This document shows, piece after piece, positions 10,493-55,388 of a stretch of 64,000 bases of DNA; position 1 is the stretch's first letter; each line of letters starts with the position of its first letter. The stretch is from Acidimicrobiales bacterium. GTDB lineage: Bacteria; Actinomycetota; Acidimicrobiia; Acidimicrobiales; DATDAH01. Location: positions 1 to 64,000 of the forward strand of contig JAEUJM010000002.1 in the NCBI GenBank assembly GCA_016794585.1. The letters are read 5' to 3'. The position numbers and the translations under genes are program-made. The notes beneath the pieces are model-generated. The model was given only the letters and a program-made list of their open reading frames with translations, ran no database searches and was not told the DNA's origin.

Positions 10493-13305
10493 GCATCCCG
10501 GAGGCGCAGCCGCTCGGCGGCCACGACCGCCAGCTGGACCCGGGACGAGAGGCCGAGCTTCGTGTAGACGTGGCTCAGGTGGCTCTCGACGGTCCGGCGT
10601 GAGCAGTGCAGCGCCGCGGCGATCTCGGCGTTGCTGAGCGACTCGGCCAGCAGGCTCACGACCTCGAGCTCGCGTGCGGTGAGTGACGCCCAACCGAAGG
10701 TGGCCGTCGACCGGACCGCCGCCGGGCCGGCGAGGCCCGGGACGCCGAAGGGGACCGCGCCGGCCCCTTCCAGCACCGGGAAGGCCTTCGCCCGAAGGGC
10801 ATCGGCCACTGGTTGTTGTCCGACCGCCTCGTGCACGTCGGCGGCCTCGGCCTGGAGGAGGGCGAGCTCCACCGGGCGGGCGTTCGCCTTGCGGGCGGCC
10901 AGGCGATCCAGCGCCTCTCGGTAGGCGGTGGGATCCCGGTCGGCCATCCCCCGGCAACGGGCGGTGACCATGGGCGCCGAGGAGTCGGGGGAGCGGGCGC
11001 TGATCTCCTCGAGGGCCCGCAGCACCCGGTCGACGCGGTCCCGCTCGCCGGCCCGCAGCGCCACGCGCACGACGTCCGGGGCGATGTCCCACACGTAGTA
11101 GTCGAGGCCTCGCTCCTCGAGGCCGTCCCAGAGCAGACCGATCGTCCCCAGAGCCGCACCCACCTGGCCCTGCCGTTCCGCCAGCAGCGCCGACACCCAG
11201 GCCACCTGGTCCAGGCCCTGTCCCCCCTCGGCGGCCCCGAGCTCGGCTTCGGCCAGCGCGCGGGCCGCCGCGTCCCGGTCGTCCCGGGCGACGGCCAATC
11301 TCGCCCGTACGCACCACAGCCAGACGTCGGCCACCGAGCCGCCCATGTCGTGGCTCTGCGACAGGCCGGCGTCCACCTCGGCCATCGCCTCGTCCCAGTC
11401 GCCGCGACGGTGGTGGGCGCGGGCACGCAGCAGGTGGCGGAGCGGGACGTCCCAGACGAGCCCGAGGCGCTCACCCAGCTCGGTCGCCCGCTCGATGGCC
11501 GTGCGGGCCTCGGCGTCGTGGTCCGCCCACAGGAGCACCTGCGCATAGAACACGTAGGGCACGTTTCGGTGCGCCTCGAGGCGACCGGAGGCGTCGGCCC
11601 GGGTGACGGCCTCCCGTCCGAGGGCGAGTCCCCCGGGGAGGTCGCCTTCGAGGGCGCGCACCCACGAGGTCACCGCCAGGACGAAGGTCTCCACGGCCAC
11701 GTCGCCGGCCGCCCTCGACGCCGACAGGGCCCGCGCCGCGGTCTCCGCGGCGGCGGTCAGGTCGCCGCCGAGCAGGTGTGCCAAGGCGGCGTCGGCGAGC
11801 GCGCCGGCCCGCTCCGGCGAGTCCGGCTCGGTCCCGTTGTCCAACTGGGCGGCAGCCTCGGACAGGCGCCCTTCGAGGAAGAGCGCCTGGCCCAGGAGGT
11901 AGCCGAGGGTGCCCCGCAACTCGTCGTCGACGCCGGCGTCGCGCAGGCAGGCCTCGGCGAGGGCGTGGCCATCGCGCTGGCGGCCCGAGAAGACGAGTGC
12001 CTCGGCGAGTCGGGCCTGCACCGCCGGCCGGCGGGCATCGTCGGGCGGGAGCAGCTCGATCGCCCGGGTGAGGAACCCGGCGGCCGTGGCCGGCGCGGTC
12101 ACCCGGACCTGGTGGGCGCCCTCGAGCAGCCAGGGGACGGCCTCCGCCCCGGCGCCGGCCGCACCCCGGTCGACCTGCGCGGCGATGTCGAACGCGTCAG
12201 CGTGGCGATCGGCCAGCGCCCGGGCGGCCTCGACGTGCAGGGTGGTGCGCACGGCCCCGGGCAACGACTGGTAGATGCCCTCCCACACGAGGTCGTGCAC
12301 GAAGGAGAGCCGATCGCCCGAGGGGTGCAGGATGCCGGCGGCGAGCGCCTCGTCGACGTCGGCGGCGACCGAGATCCCGCGTCGGCCGACGAGGTCGGCC
12401 ACCACGGCGAGCTCGAAGGTGCGGCCGAGCACCGACGCGGCCCGCAGGAGCTCGACCGTCTCGGGACGCAGGTGGTCGAGTCGGCGCAGCGCGGTGTCAC
12501 CGAGCGGGGAGCCGCCACGCCCTTCGGCCAACTCGATGGTGTCGCCGTCCTCGAAGAGCGCGCCTGCTGAGCTGTGCGCGGCGACGAGCTCGATGGCGAG
12601 GAAGGGGTTGCCGCCGGCGCGCCCCACCTCGGCGGCGAGTCGCGGTCCCGGGCGTCCCCCGGCGAGCGAGGCGACCACGTCGGCCAGGGCAGGGGCGGGG
12701 AGCGGGCCGACCTCCACCACGGTGGCGCCGAGGTCGTCGAGCGCCCGCAGTGCCGTCACCAGTGCCGGCGCCTGCGGGTGCCGGCGCGTTCCCACGGCGA
12801 GCAGCAACGGCACCGTGGCCGCCCGCTCCGCCAGGGCCACCACCACCCGCAACGTGTCCTCGTCGGCCCAGTGGAGGTCGTCGAGGACGAGGGCGACCGG
12901 GCGACGGGCCGTCGCCGCGTCGACGAGGCCGAGCACGGTGTCGAGCACGCGGAACCGGACCTCGCCGGCGAGGGGCAGTCCGGAGTGATCGAGCTCGTCC
13001 TGCCCGGAGAGGATCCGACCGATGCGGGCCGCGTCGGGATCGTCGGCCTCGGGATGCAGGCCGAGCAACTGGGTCAGCGGGCCGAAGGGCCGTGCCTGGG
13101 CCATCTCGTCGCCACGGCCGCTGTGCACGTCGAAGCCCGCCGCGTCGGCGCGTCGGGCCAGGTCGGCCAGGAGTGCGCTCTTGCCGATGCCGGGGTCGCC
13201 CCGCACGACGACGACGCGGCCTCGTCCGGCGCCGGCGTCCTCCACGGCGGCGGTGAGCAGCGCCACCTGCTCGTCCCGGCCGACGAGGGTGCTGGTGTCC
13301 GCCAC
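10489..13305 (-). CDS. Large ATP-binding LuxR-family transcriptional regulator (LAL/STAND type)
   Basis: 938 residues from GTG 13305. The N-terminal ATPase module has Walker A GDPGIGKS at 36-43 and Walker B ALVLDDLHWAD around 135. The middle, roughly residues 390-850, is Ala/Leu-rich and made of TPR-like helical pairs. The C-terminal 65 residues form a GerE/LuxR HTH: LTARELEVVSLLAE, NAEIAAALHCSRRTVESHL. LAL regulators act as ligand- or sugar-responsive activators. A TAGGCT box seven bases before the GTG supports this start over the ATG at 13383. A motif repeated downstream lies next to that box, so autoregulation and control of the LLM gene are plausible but unproven. Confidence 0.9.
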   Translation of the reverse strand: MADTSTLVGRDEQVALLTAAVEDAGAGRGRVVVVRGDPGIGKSALLADLARRADAAGFDVHSGRGDEMAQARPFGPLTQLLGLHPEADDPDAARIGRILSGQDELDHSGLPLAGEVRFRVLDTVLGLVDAATARRPVALVLDDLHWADEDTLRVVVALAERAATVPLLLAVGTRRHPQAPALVTALRALDDLGATVVEVGPLPAPALADVVASLAGGRPGPRLAAEVGRAGGNPFLAIELVAAHSSAGALFEDGDTIELAEGRGGSPLGDTALRRLDHLRPETVELLRAASVLGRTFELAVVADLVGRRGISVAADVDEALAAGILHPSGDRLSFVHDLVWEGIYQSLPGAVRTTLHVEAARALADRHADAFDIAAQVDRGAAGAGAEAVPWLLEGAHQVRVTAPATAAGFLTRAIELLPPDDARRPAVQARLAEALVFSGRQRDGHALAEACLRDAGVDDELRGTLGYLLGQALFLEGRLSEAAAQLDNGTEPDSPERAGALADAALAHLLGGDLTAAAETAARALSASRAAGDVAVETFVLAVTSWVRALEGDLPGGLALGREAVTRADASGRLEAHRNVPYVFYAQVLLWADHDAEARTAIERATELGERLGLVWDVPLRHLLRARAHHRRGDWDEAMAEVDAGLSQSHDMGGSVADVWLWCVRARLAVARDDRDAAARALAEAELGAAEGGQGLDQVAWVSALLAERQGQVGAALGTIGLLWDGLEERGLDYYVWDIAPDVVRVALRAGERDRVDRVLRALEEISARSPDSSAPMVTARCRGMADRDPTAYREALDRLAARKANARPVELALLQAEAADVHEAVGQQPVADALRAKAFPVLEGAGAVPFGVPGLAGPAAVRSTATFGWASLTARELEVVSLLAESLSNAEIAAALHCSRRTVESHLSHVYTKLGLSSRVQLAVVAAERLRLRDA

Positions 13306-13312
13306 CCGGTGG

Positions 13313-13335
13313 AGCCTAGAGATCCGTAGTGCTAC
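13313..13335 (-). promoter_or_regulatory. Promoter of the LuxR-type regulator with motif copy 2
   Basis: On the minus strand TAGGCT (13313-13318) is seven bases before the GTG at 13305. Directly upstream is the second copy of the 14-bp motif (13322-13335, ATCCGTAGTGCTAC on the plus strand), covering the spacer and -35 region. The divergent propeller gene starts 39 bases further on. Confidence 0.45.
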
Positions 13336-13373
13336 TGATGCGGCTCGACTGGCCCTCGTGCGACGGTCCCCCG

Positions 13374-52548: not shown

Positions 52549-53184
52549 TCAGTCCTCGGGGGCGATGGAGGCGAAGGCGCGGGCCTTGTCGAGCGCCGCG
52601 GTGCGCTCGTCGCTGGAGGCGGCGCCGACCAGCACGTAGTCGTCGGCGTACTCGGGGCGGAGCTCGCCGTCGTCGTCGAGGAGCCAGGCCATGGCGAGGC
52701 GGCGGGGGACACGCACCCGCTCGGGGCGCTCGAGGGTGCCGAAGACCCGGTCCCACCAGGGGACGCTCACGCCGTGGTTGCTCATGGGGTGGCCGAAGTG
52801 GTGGTGGAAGTGGTGGATGCGCAGCCAGTGCGAGTACGTGCCCACCGGGCCGCGCAGATGGGCCTGGGCGTGGCAGTACTCGTAGACGCCGTAGCCGACG
52901 GCCCAGCCCGCGGCGACGCCGAGGCCGATGGCCAGCGAGCCGGTGAGGTACCAGAACAGCGGGGTCCAGATGAGCCCGCCGACGAGGCCGACGCCGATCC
53001 AGCTGAGCACGTTGGTGTAGGCGAGGTGCCAGTCGGCGCGCACGTGGTGGAGCAGGTGCTCGCGGCTCATGATCCCTTTGCCATGCAGCTCGTGCATGGC
53101 GAAGCGGTGCAGCACGTACTCGCCGAGGGTCCACAGCAGCCAGCCGAAGGCGAAGGCGAGGAGGGTGAGGAGCAGCGTCGTCAT
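52549..53184 (-). CDS. Fatty-acid hydroxylase / sterol desaturase-family membrane protein
   Basis: 211 residues. Membrane di-iron enzyme family: histidine boxes EYVLHRFAMHELHGKG, REHLLHHVRADWH and RIHHFHHHFGHP, with hydrophobic segments at about residues 3-25 and 60-100. Members hydroxylate or desaturate fatty acids, sterols or carotenoid rings. Next to a carotenoid oxygenase, a beta-carotene hydroxylase-like activity is one possibility, but fatty acids are equally likely. It starts 10 bases after the TetR gene stop and has AGAGG upstream, so the pair form an operon and the TetR protein probably controls it. Confidence 0.87.
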   Translation of the reverse strand: MTTLLLTLLAFAFGWLLWTLGEYVLHRFAMHELHGKGIMSREHLLHHVRADWHLAYTNVLSWIGVGLVGGLIWTPLFWYLTGSLAIGLGVAAGWAVGYGVYEYCHAQAHLRGPVGTYSHWLRIHHFHHHFGHPMSNHGVSVPWWDRVFGTLERPERVRVPRRLAMAWLLDDDGELRPEYADDYVLVGAASSDERTAALDKARAFASIAPED

Positions 53185-53194
53185 GGCAGGCCTC

Positions 53195-53968
53195 TCAGAG
53201 GTGGTCGGCGACCCAGTGGTCGCTGGCGAGTCGGGCGGTGGTTAGGGCAGTGGCGTCGGCGCCCCAGCCGGCGAGGAGCGCCCGGGTGAGCTCGTGGCCG
53301 AGGGTCGCGCCGGTGGTGGGGACGCCGATGCCGAGGTCGTCGATCTGGAGGCCGCCGTTGAGGGCGGTGATCCACACGAAGGTGCGCAGGAGGTCGCCGT
53401 CGAGGACCCCGTCGACGGGGTCGGCGCCGGCATCGTGGGGGTCGAGGGCGCCGGCGGCCACGGCGTCGGCCAACAGCCGGCGGGGACGGTCGAGGACGCT
53501 CATGGCCGCGGGCACCACGGTGGCGGCGTCGTTGGCTTCTTGGACCTTGGGCGTGGCCAACAGCTGCTGCTGGAGGCGGAACTCCCGGGCGTGGGACTCG
53601 GGAGCGGCGAGGAACAGGTCGCTGAACACCCAGAGCCGGGCCAGGGCGGCCACGGTCGGGGGGAGGGGGTCGGGCCGGGCGCCGGCGTCGAGCTCCCACG
53701 CCTGGAGGGTCGACTCGGCCACGCCGCCGAGGGTGTGCAGGGCCCGTTGCTGCATCGCGGCGATGAGGGCGCTGCGCGACGGGAAGTAGGTGTAGAGCGA
53801 CGCCGGGGCGTAGTCGGCGGCATCGGCGAGGGCGGCCATGGTGACGCCCTCGACCCCGAGGCGCTCGCTCAGCTCGAGTGCGAGGTCGAGCAGGTCGTTG
53901 CGCTTGGCGGCCCGCTTGCGGGTGCGGCGGTCCGGCTCGACCGATATGTCGACGTTTTCCGAAGGCAC
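53195..53968 (-). CDS. TetR-family transcriptional repressor
   Basis: 257 residues. N-terminal HTH starting RTRKRAAKRNDLLDLALELSER, with the recognition region VTMAALADAADYAPASLYTYFPSR. The larger C-terminal part is the ligand pocket, with PESHAREFRLQQQLL a notable segment. The GTG at 53968 lies seven bases after TACGTT (minus strand), a leaderless promoter, and no other usable start exists before the HTH. A perfect 13-3-13 palindrome spans that -10 box and the GTG, so autorepression is very likely and would also control the downstream hydroxylase. The inducer may be a fatty acyl-CoA or isoprenoid metabolite given the neighbours. Confidence 0.91.
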   Translation of the reverse strand: MPSENVDISVEPDRRTRKRAAKRNDLLDLALELSERLGVEGVTMAALADAADYAPASLYTYFPSRSALIAAMQQRALHTLGGVAESTLQAWELDAGARPDPLPPTVAALARLWVFSDLFLAAPESHAREFRLQQQLLATPKVQEANDAATVVPAAMSVLDRPRRLLADAVAAGALDPHDAGADPVDGVLDGDLLRTFVWITALNGGLQIDDLGIGVPTTGATLGHELTRALLAGWGADATALTTARLASDHWVADHL

Positions 53969-53980
53969 TTCGGAAAACGT
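53952..53980. promoter_or_regulatory. Perfect 13-3-13 palindrome: TetR operator over -10 box and start codon
   Basis: ACGTTTTCCGAAG (53952-53964), spacer GCA, CTTCGGAAAACGT (53968-53980). The arms are exact reverse complements. The minus-strand -10 box TACGTT (53976-53981) and GTG start (53968-53966) lie inside or at its edges. Binding would block RNA polymerase directly. Confidence 0.85.
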
Positions 53981-54017
53981 AGACCATTCGTGCGAAGCCG
54001 TCAATGGCCTGCCCTGC

Positions 54018-55388
54018 TCAGCCCGGCACCTCGAAGGTGATGGTGGCCGAGTCGGTGCCGGGGGTGAGGACCCCGGTGTCGCCGGCCACGAACTCACCGT
54101 TCACCGACACCTGGAGGTCGTAGTTGGCGCCGTCCTCGTCGCAGGCGTTGAAGTTCCGGACGAACAGCTGGTAGGTGCCCGGCTGCGCCTGCCCGGGTCC
54201 CCAGAACGCCTCCTCGCCGTGGGCGCCCGCGTCCTCGCAGTCGGGGACGTCGTCGCCGCCGACGAGGGTGCCTCCGGTCGAGGTGGTGGGGGTCGAGAAG
54301 GAGAGCTCCTCGCCGCTCGGTTCGATGACGTGGAGGTCGAGGTCGTCGTTGCCACCCCACGTGAGGATGATGTCGACGTCGTTGTCACTGCTGAAGTCAT
54401 CGGGGGGGAGGGTGTCCGGCGGGAGCGTGTTCGGCGGGTTCGTCGTGTCCGTGTCGGTATCGGTGTCGGTGCCGTCACCGGGCTGGTCGTCGTCGCCGTC
54501 GGTCCCCGGCGGGCGGGTGAACGGGTCGCCCGTGTCGAGGTCGGTGATCACGAAGATGTCGATGGTCACGTCGATCTGGATGACGGTCAGGCTGGCCGGG
54601 TTGAAGCCGGTCCACTGCGGGCCCCGGAAGCGGGGGCTGCCCGAGACCGCGGTCGGCGGGGTGAGGGGGTTGCCGCACGCGCAGCGCGCCCGGGGGATGC
54701 CCTGGCGGTCCACCAGCACGGCGGTGCCGGCCTGGAGGACGGTCTGGATGGTGGTTGCCCGCCCGTCCCGGAAGCCGTGGTTGGTCACCCGGGTGTCGGT
54801 GCGGAGCTGCATCGAGGTGAGGTCGAGGATGTAGTCCTCGAGGTCGGCGAAGGCGATGCCCTGCACGCCGGCCCACGCCTGCCCCTTGTCGGGATTGGCG
54901 GTCAGGAACTCGATCATCTGGCGTCGGTCGCACTGGGCCTGGTTCTGGGTGCCGCCGTAGAGGCCGGGCTCCGAGCCGGAGGCGCTGCGCACCTCGACCG
55001 GCCCGCCTGATGACGTGCCGGACGTGCCCTCGGCCGCCACGCTGAGGTTGTCGGGGTTCGAGACGCTGTCGGTGAAGGGGTCGTCACCGACGTCGGAGGC
55101 GGGAGCCAGGAAGATCTCGCCGGCCTCGGCGTCGTCGGACGTGAGGACCAGGACCCCGACCGTCGCCGCCACGAGCAGCACGACCACGCCGACGGCGATG
55201 GCGACGATGATGCCGGTGTTCGAACGCTTGGGTGGTGGCCCCGGCGGGTAACCGCCGTAGCCGTACCCGTAGCCGCCGGGTGGGGGTGTCGCGGGCGGAG
55301 GCCCCGCCGGCGGCGGGTAGGACGGTGGCCCCGCAGGGGGCGGCCCAGGCGGGGGACCACCGGATACCGGAGGTACGGAAGTGGTCAT
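54018..55388 (-). CDS. Proline-rich membrane-anchored protein with DUF6777-like and beta-sandwich domains
   Basis: 456 residues. The first 55 residues are a Pro/Gly/Tyr-rich cytoplasmic tail. One membrane helix follows (IIVAIAVGVVVLLVAATVGVLVL, shown as two halves IIVAIAVGVVVL and LVAATVGVLVL). Outside, residues 130-250 match the DUF6777 pattern (QCDRRQMIEFLTANPDKG, CACGNPLTPP). After a Thr/Asp repeat linker (TDTDTDTDT), the C-terminal 120 residues form a beta-sandwich (VDIILTWGGNDDLDLHVIEPSG) resembling DUF2135-like domains. Surface role unknown. It has a single membrane span, so a scaffold or sensor is possible. It is the last gene of a minus-strand series with the ABC system upstream. Confidence 0.78.
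   Translation of the reverse strand: MTTSVPPVSGGPPPGPPPAGPPSYPPPAGPPPATPPPGGYGYGYGGYPPGPPPKRSNTGIIVAIAVGVVVLLVAATVGVLVLTSDDAEAGEIFLAPASDVGDDPFTDSVSNPDNLSVAAEGTSGTSSGGPVEVRSASGSEPGLYGGTQNQAQCDRRQMIEFLTANPDKGQAWAGVQGIAFADLEDYILDLTSMQLRTDTRVTNHGFRDGRATTIQTVLQAGTAVLVDRQGIPRARCACGNPLTPPTAVSGSPRFRGPQWTGFNPASLTVIQIDVTIDIFVITDLDTGDPFTRPPGTDGDDDQPGDGTDTDTDTDTTNPPNTLPPDTLPPDDFSSDNDVDIILTWGGNDDLDLHVIEPSGEELSFSTPTTSTGGTLVGGDDVPDCEDAGAHGEEAFWGPGQAQPGTYQLFVRNFNACDEDGANYDLQVSVNGEFVAGDTGVLTPGTDSATITFEVPG

Follow-up and report, generated by a model that had tools for sequence, protein, structure and literature searches.

Transposon Tn1721 has a divergent tetA promoter and two operators. The tetR gene of this transposon is leaderless and under its own control (Klock and Hillen 1986, as cited in PMC3017554). 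In Rhodobacter sphaeroides, the autoregulated acuR-acuI-dddL operon opens with the gene for a TetR-family repressor, with the enzyme genes downstream, and is transcribed into a leaderless mRNA mapped by 5' RACE; the AcuR operator is an inverted repeat, TAATAGAC-n6-GTCTATTA, that overlaps the promoter upstream of the ATG, and the acuR-type arrangement occurs in other bacteria too (PMC3017554). The TetR-family regulator SAV576 of Streptomyces avermitilis has a palindromic site overlapping its own start codon; the SAV576 transcript begins 405 nt upstream and hence is not leaderless, and the main target is a divergent P450 gene (PMC3742746).

Within a window of 64,000 nucleotides (the whole stretch of DNA analysed, from an Acidimicrobiales bacterium), we describe a TetR-family gene followed by a gene of the fatty acid hydroxylase superfamily, with a palindrome that is very probably the operator of the adjacent TetR, such that the two genes would form a local, self-repressing, leaderless operon with the operator lying over the -10 element, the transcription start, and the first codons. 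As in the acuR operon, the repressor gene comes first and is predicted to be leaderless, the operator overlaps the promoter, and an enzyme gene lies downstream, here all deduced from sequence alone; unlike the AcuR operator, which is located upstream of the ATG, the dyad has its centre on the start codon and extends into the coding region, and the enzyme is a different one. Like Tn1721, the locus would have a leaderless gene for a TetR repressor that regulates itself, but it has one operator and a co-directional gene in place of two operators and divergent tetA. With SAV576 it shares a palindromic site over the start codon of the TetR gene itself, the difference being the predicted leaderless transcript. 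A literature search found no paper describing this TetR-hydroxylase operon. This particular switch is new but its principle is not, and biologically it is a tidy illustration of what is already established.

The sequence-only reading had described a perfect 29-bp palindrome, with complementary arms around a 3-base centre, spanning 53952-53981. The palindrome is present, as ACGTTTTCCGAAG-GCA-CTTCGGAAAACGT (13+3+13) at 53952-53980; position 53981 is the extra T of the minus-strand TACGTT. This predicted operator, ACGTTTTCCGAAG-N3-CTTCGGAAAACGT, to which no strand is assigned, is supported by the sequence itself, the footprint in orthologs, and database matches, and 100 shuffles of the window yielded 0 matches to the palindrome. 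The GTG start, which the same reading placed at the centre, is indeed mid-palindrome but is shifted by one base from the central triplet, TGC on the minus strand. Perfect palindromy, although real here, is not the conserved property at the centre: with the G of GTG numbered zero, position -1 varies, being A here versus C or T in 19 of the 22 distinct homologous loci, and the perfect centre is a local detail. The claim of a single operator held up, in that a search of the whole 5.49-Mb genome with the 23-bp core, allowing up to 3 mismatches, returned one site.

The TetR-family gene (53195-53968, minus strand, 257 aa, predicted leaderless) is supported by the Pfam match, the fold, and the starts of its orthologs, and begins with GTG at 53968-53966. 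On the same strand, a -35 element, TTGACG (54004-53999), is separated by a 17-nt spacer from a -10 element of the TANNNT type, TACGTT (53981-53976), which overlaps the outer edge of the palindrome, as had been claimed. TTG is found at -36 +/-1 in 20 of the 22 distinct loci, compared with a background of 2.2%, and most of them, including most orthologs, have TACGNT in positions -13 to -8; two of the 22 lack a recognisable -35 element. A strict scan for E. coli-type sigma-70 promoters reported no promoter here. There is no Shine-Dalgarno sequence and no purine-rich stretch before the GTG, and in four orthologs an in-frame stop lies shortly upstream and GTG is the only available start codon. With its promoter spaced onto the start codon and no Shine-Dalgarno sequence, the locus conforms in these features to the leaderless acuR-like design. 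A transcription start about 7 bases past the -10 element would fall on the GTG or no more than one or two bases away, so that the TetR mRNA would be leaderless at its 5' end. Comparative evidence thus strongly supports the proposed overlap of the palindrome with a predicted promoter and leaderless start. Upstream, a gene for a DUF6777 protein (window 54018-55388, minus strand) runs in the same direction, its end 49 bp away from the TetR start; no terminator-like site was reported between this gene and tetR, so that read-through into tetR is possible.

Orthologs of this TetR, from ten genomes sampled in the same order, are 46-62% identical to it. Across 11 orthologs, conservation is concentrated in columns -13 to +16, where it averages 1.71 bits, compared with 0.39 upstream, and this 30-bp island lies at the same place in all 11, which represent eight genera, while the flanks diverge. 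In eight of the 11 genomes, the 23-bp core differs at position -1 only. At the pair -9/+13, eight genomes have T:A, whereas the three diverged members show symmetric changes, to A:T in one and to G:C in two; this is the hallmark of a protein site with two-fold symmetry. The most diverged ortholog, in genome G191, retains only TTTCC-N11-GGAAA of the palindrome. Overall, more than 20 related bacteria carry the predicted switch with hardly any change. As the right arm codes for MPSEN in most orthologs, such conservation could in principle reflect the N-terminus of the protein, or else the end of a repeat or mobile element. However, the non-coding left arm is as fixed as the coding right arm, and all eight orthologs that have the VPSEN peptide use CCT for proline 2, although CCT accounts for only 4 of the 162 Pro codons (2.5%) in the remainder of those genes; the protein therefore does not explain the conservation. 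Moreover, a dyad is kept in orthologs without the MPSEN peptide, and the palindrome is single copy and hence no element end. The conservation of the left arm largely refutes this explanation, which we consider extremely improbable, and the constraint acts on the DNA, not on the protein.

The palindrome could also act as an RNA hairpin, whereby transcripts started upstream would fold and hide the GTG, and control would be translational rather than transcriptional. As RNA, the palindrome is predicted to fold at -25.7 kcal/mol (z -4.75) and to place the GUG at the stem and loop, and the one covarying pair is compatible with an RNA stem as well. Nevertheless, the conserved -35 and -10 elements put the transcript start at the GTG, so that only one arm of the palindrome would be transcribed. 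Furthermore, the base sequence itself is nearly invariant, beyond what mere pairing would require, 19 of the 22 loci do not preserve the inner pair -1/+5, and there is no Shine-Dalgarno sequence to hide; we regard the hairpin explanation as very unlikely. A dual role, in which the palindrome is the DNA operator of the leaderless promoter and, in addition, folds over the GTG in any RNA that reads through from the co-directional upstream gene and blocks translation of the repressor, is unlikely too, if less strikingly so. If true, it would make the output of the repressor depend solely on its own promoter, and start-codon operators would be recurrent in this TetR clade, again with a different sequence in the paralogs.

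We scanned one genome per species, 84,980 species in all, for exact matches to TTTTCCGANGTGCCTTCGGAAAA and obtained 15 places, each of them at the GTG of a TetR ortholog (50-61% identical). A hydroxylase homolog follows TetR at these loci, being cut by the end of the stretch in L192, and the named hosts, among them Aquihabitans sp. G128 and IMCC26207, are actinobacteria of the Acidimicrobiales type. The metagenome assemblies of L185 and L190, which contain an Acidimicrobiia-type TetR-hydroxylase operon, are titled Bifidobacterium breve; these titles are probably wrong. A search of related genomes with N7 spacing found a single good site (0-2 mismatches) in each of the ten ortholog genomes and only the diverged site in the eleventh, G191. 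The additional sites in related genomes all had 3 mismatches and were scattered, and in two genomes a reversed control pattern was about as frequent; accordingly, we took these sites as chance matches. The neighbouring oxygenase, thiolase, and dehydrogenase genes, which the sequence-only reading had suggested as further targets, lack support in this role: the whole-genome core search found no site before any of them and no second site in the genome, and these genes do not travel with the TetR-hydroxylase pair. On this evidence, TetR is a predicted local regulator of one operon.

Proximity alone is no proof of cognate binding and, with 58 TetR_N matches above the cut-off in this genome, the palindrome might be the operator of a regulator other than the adjacent TetR. 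This is highly improbable, however, given that genomes have a single good site, in every case at this TetR gene, and that where the adjacent TetR has another recognition helix the type of site is different too. More distant TetR paralogs have the recognition helix CAVGT, compared with YAPAS in this TetR, and carry another dyad, TGAAC-N3-GTTCA, that often lies on the GTG or ATG start; that the type of site follows the recognition helix supports cognate binding by the adjacent TetR. A hydroxylase homolog also follows some of the CAVGT paralogs. The paralog dyad, TGAACGTGGTTCA, is often duplicated at a distance of about 17 bp, the second copy being placed on the GTG or ATG start codon; paralogs with this dyad are L075 (contig 32 of this genome, approximately 12669-13355), L071, L074, L026, L033, L034, and L035.

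The adjacent TetR protein has an N-terminal TetR-type helix-turn-helix domain (Pfam TetR_N, 1e-10, 41.6 bits against a cut-off of 24) and a TetR fold: its model (pLDDT 89) consists of helices only, the leading PDB matches are TetR-type proteins, and the fold matches include PfmR, FadR, FasR, and KstR2. The best sequence match among solved structures is KstR, in the DNA-binding region only. The protein thus shares with lipid-sensing repressors of the KstR, KstR2, FadR, and PfmR type the fold and, for KstR, similarity of the DNA-binding region, but has no sequence match to them beyond the DNA-binding domain and differs in operator and gene context. Identity with KstR, the cholesterol regulator, was rejected, the NCBIfam model NF033703 scoring 32.1 bits, far below its cut-off of 280, in the DNA-binding domain only. 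NCBIfam, PDB sequence, and fold searches identified no ligand, although lipid and acyl-CoA regulators are common among the fold matches.

The second gene (52549-53184, minus strand, 211 aa), assigned by Pfam and by the conserved pair, begins 10 bp past the TetR stop, with GAGG ahead. Its product belongs to PF04116 (49.6 bits against a cut-off of 31), and 12 of its 17 His residues are invariant, in conserved clusters, in ten aligned sequences. The match to Scs7 structures (4e-5) indicates weak similarity to Scs7-type fatty acid hydroxylases (PF04116) and does not imply the substrate; together, the Scs7 matches and the folds of lipid-sensing TetR proteins are only hints to the role of the hydroxylase and the inducer. 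TetR and the hydroxylase are adjacent on the same strand in all 11 orthologs, as in the acuR-like design, no other neighbour gene is conserved beside the pair, and in many orthologs the TetR stop and the hydroxylase start overlap (ATGA/GTGA type). This adjacency and the overlaps support an operon, and tetR and the hydroxylase gene would be co-transcribed. Control of both TetR itself and the hydroxylase by the palindrome, as originally proposed, accordingly receives strong comparative support as a prediction. Genome G139 contains two TetR-hydroxylase pairs (L060 and L067), one with an ortholog and operator, the other with a diverged TetR and no visible palindrome, which suggests regulator exchange or duplication of a hydroxylase module.

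Under the operator model, transcription from the TTGACG-17-TACGTT promoter would be countered by a TetR dimer, or a pair of dimers, occupying the 29-bp site. Bound TetR would cover the -10 element together with the transcription start and the initial codons and would thereby block RNA polymerase, resulting in negative autoregulation. The hydroxylase-like gene would be part of the tetR transcript, translated via its own Shine-Dalgarno sequence or by coupling, so that the repressor and the lipid-hydroxylase gene are most likely switched on and off together. A lipid-type ligand, perhaps an acyl-CoA or a compound that the hydroxylase consumes or makes, would presumably free TetR from the DNA; the identity of the inducer and of the lipid substrate is a guess. 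In a leaderless gene, one operator can span everything from the promoter through the transcription start to the first codons, and with such an operator DNA binding constrains the N-terminus of the protein. For the Acidimicrobiia-type actinobacteria, in which few regulators have been studied, the locus offers a clean, predicted pair of repressor and operator that has one target and a 30-bp site with almost no variation. It also points to a lipid hydroxylase, itself unstudied, as a function under separate regulation.

Among the 58 TetR genes of this genome, we found 18 palindromes, three of which, including the one described here, centre on a candidate start, compared with 0.7 expected. We do not find these small numbers convincing as evidence that start-codon palindromes are general among the TetR genes of this genome. 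The other two start-centred palindromes, at L146 and L134 (contigs 16 and 26), are GC-rich and centre on a candidate GTG, that of L146 being CGACGCCGGG-GTG-CCCGGCGTCG. At L168 (contig 31, near 40214), another TetR gene is preceded by two near-identical palindromes of the GTTGTAGCG...CGCTACAAC type, which are spaced 32 bp apart and are probably a double operator.
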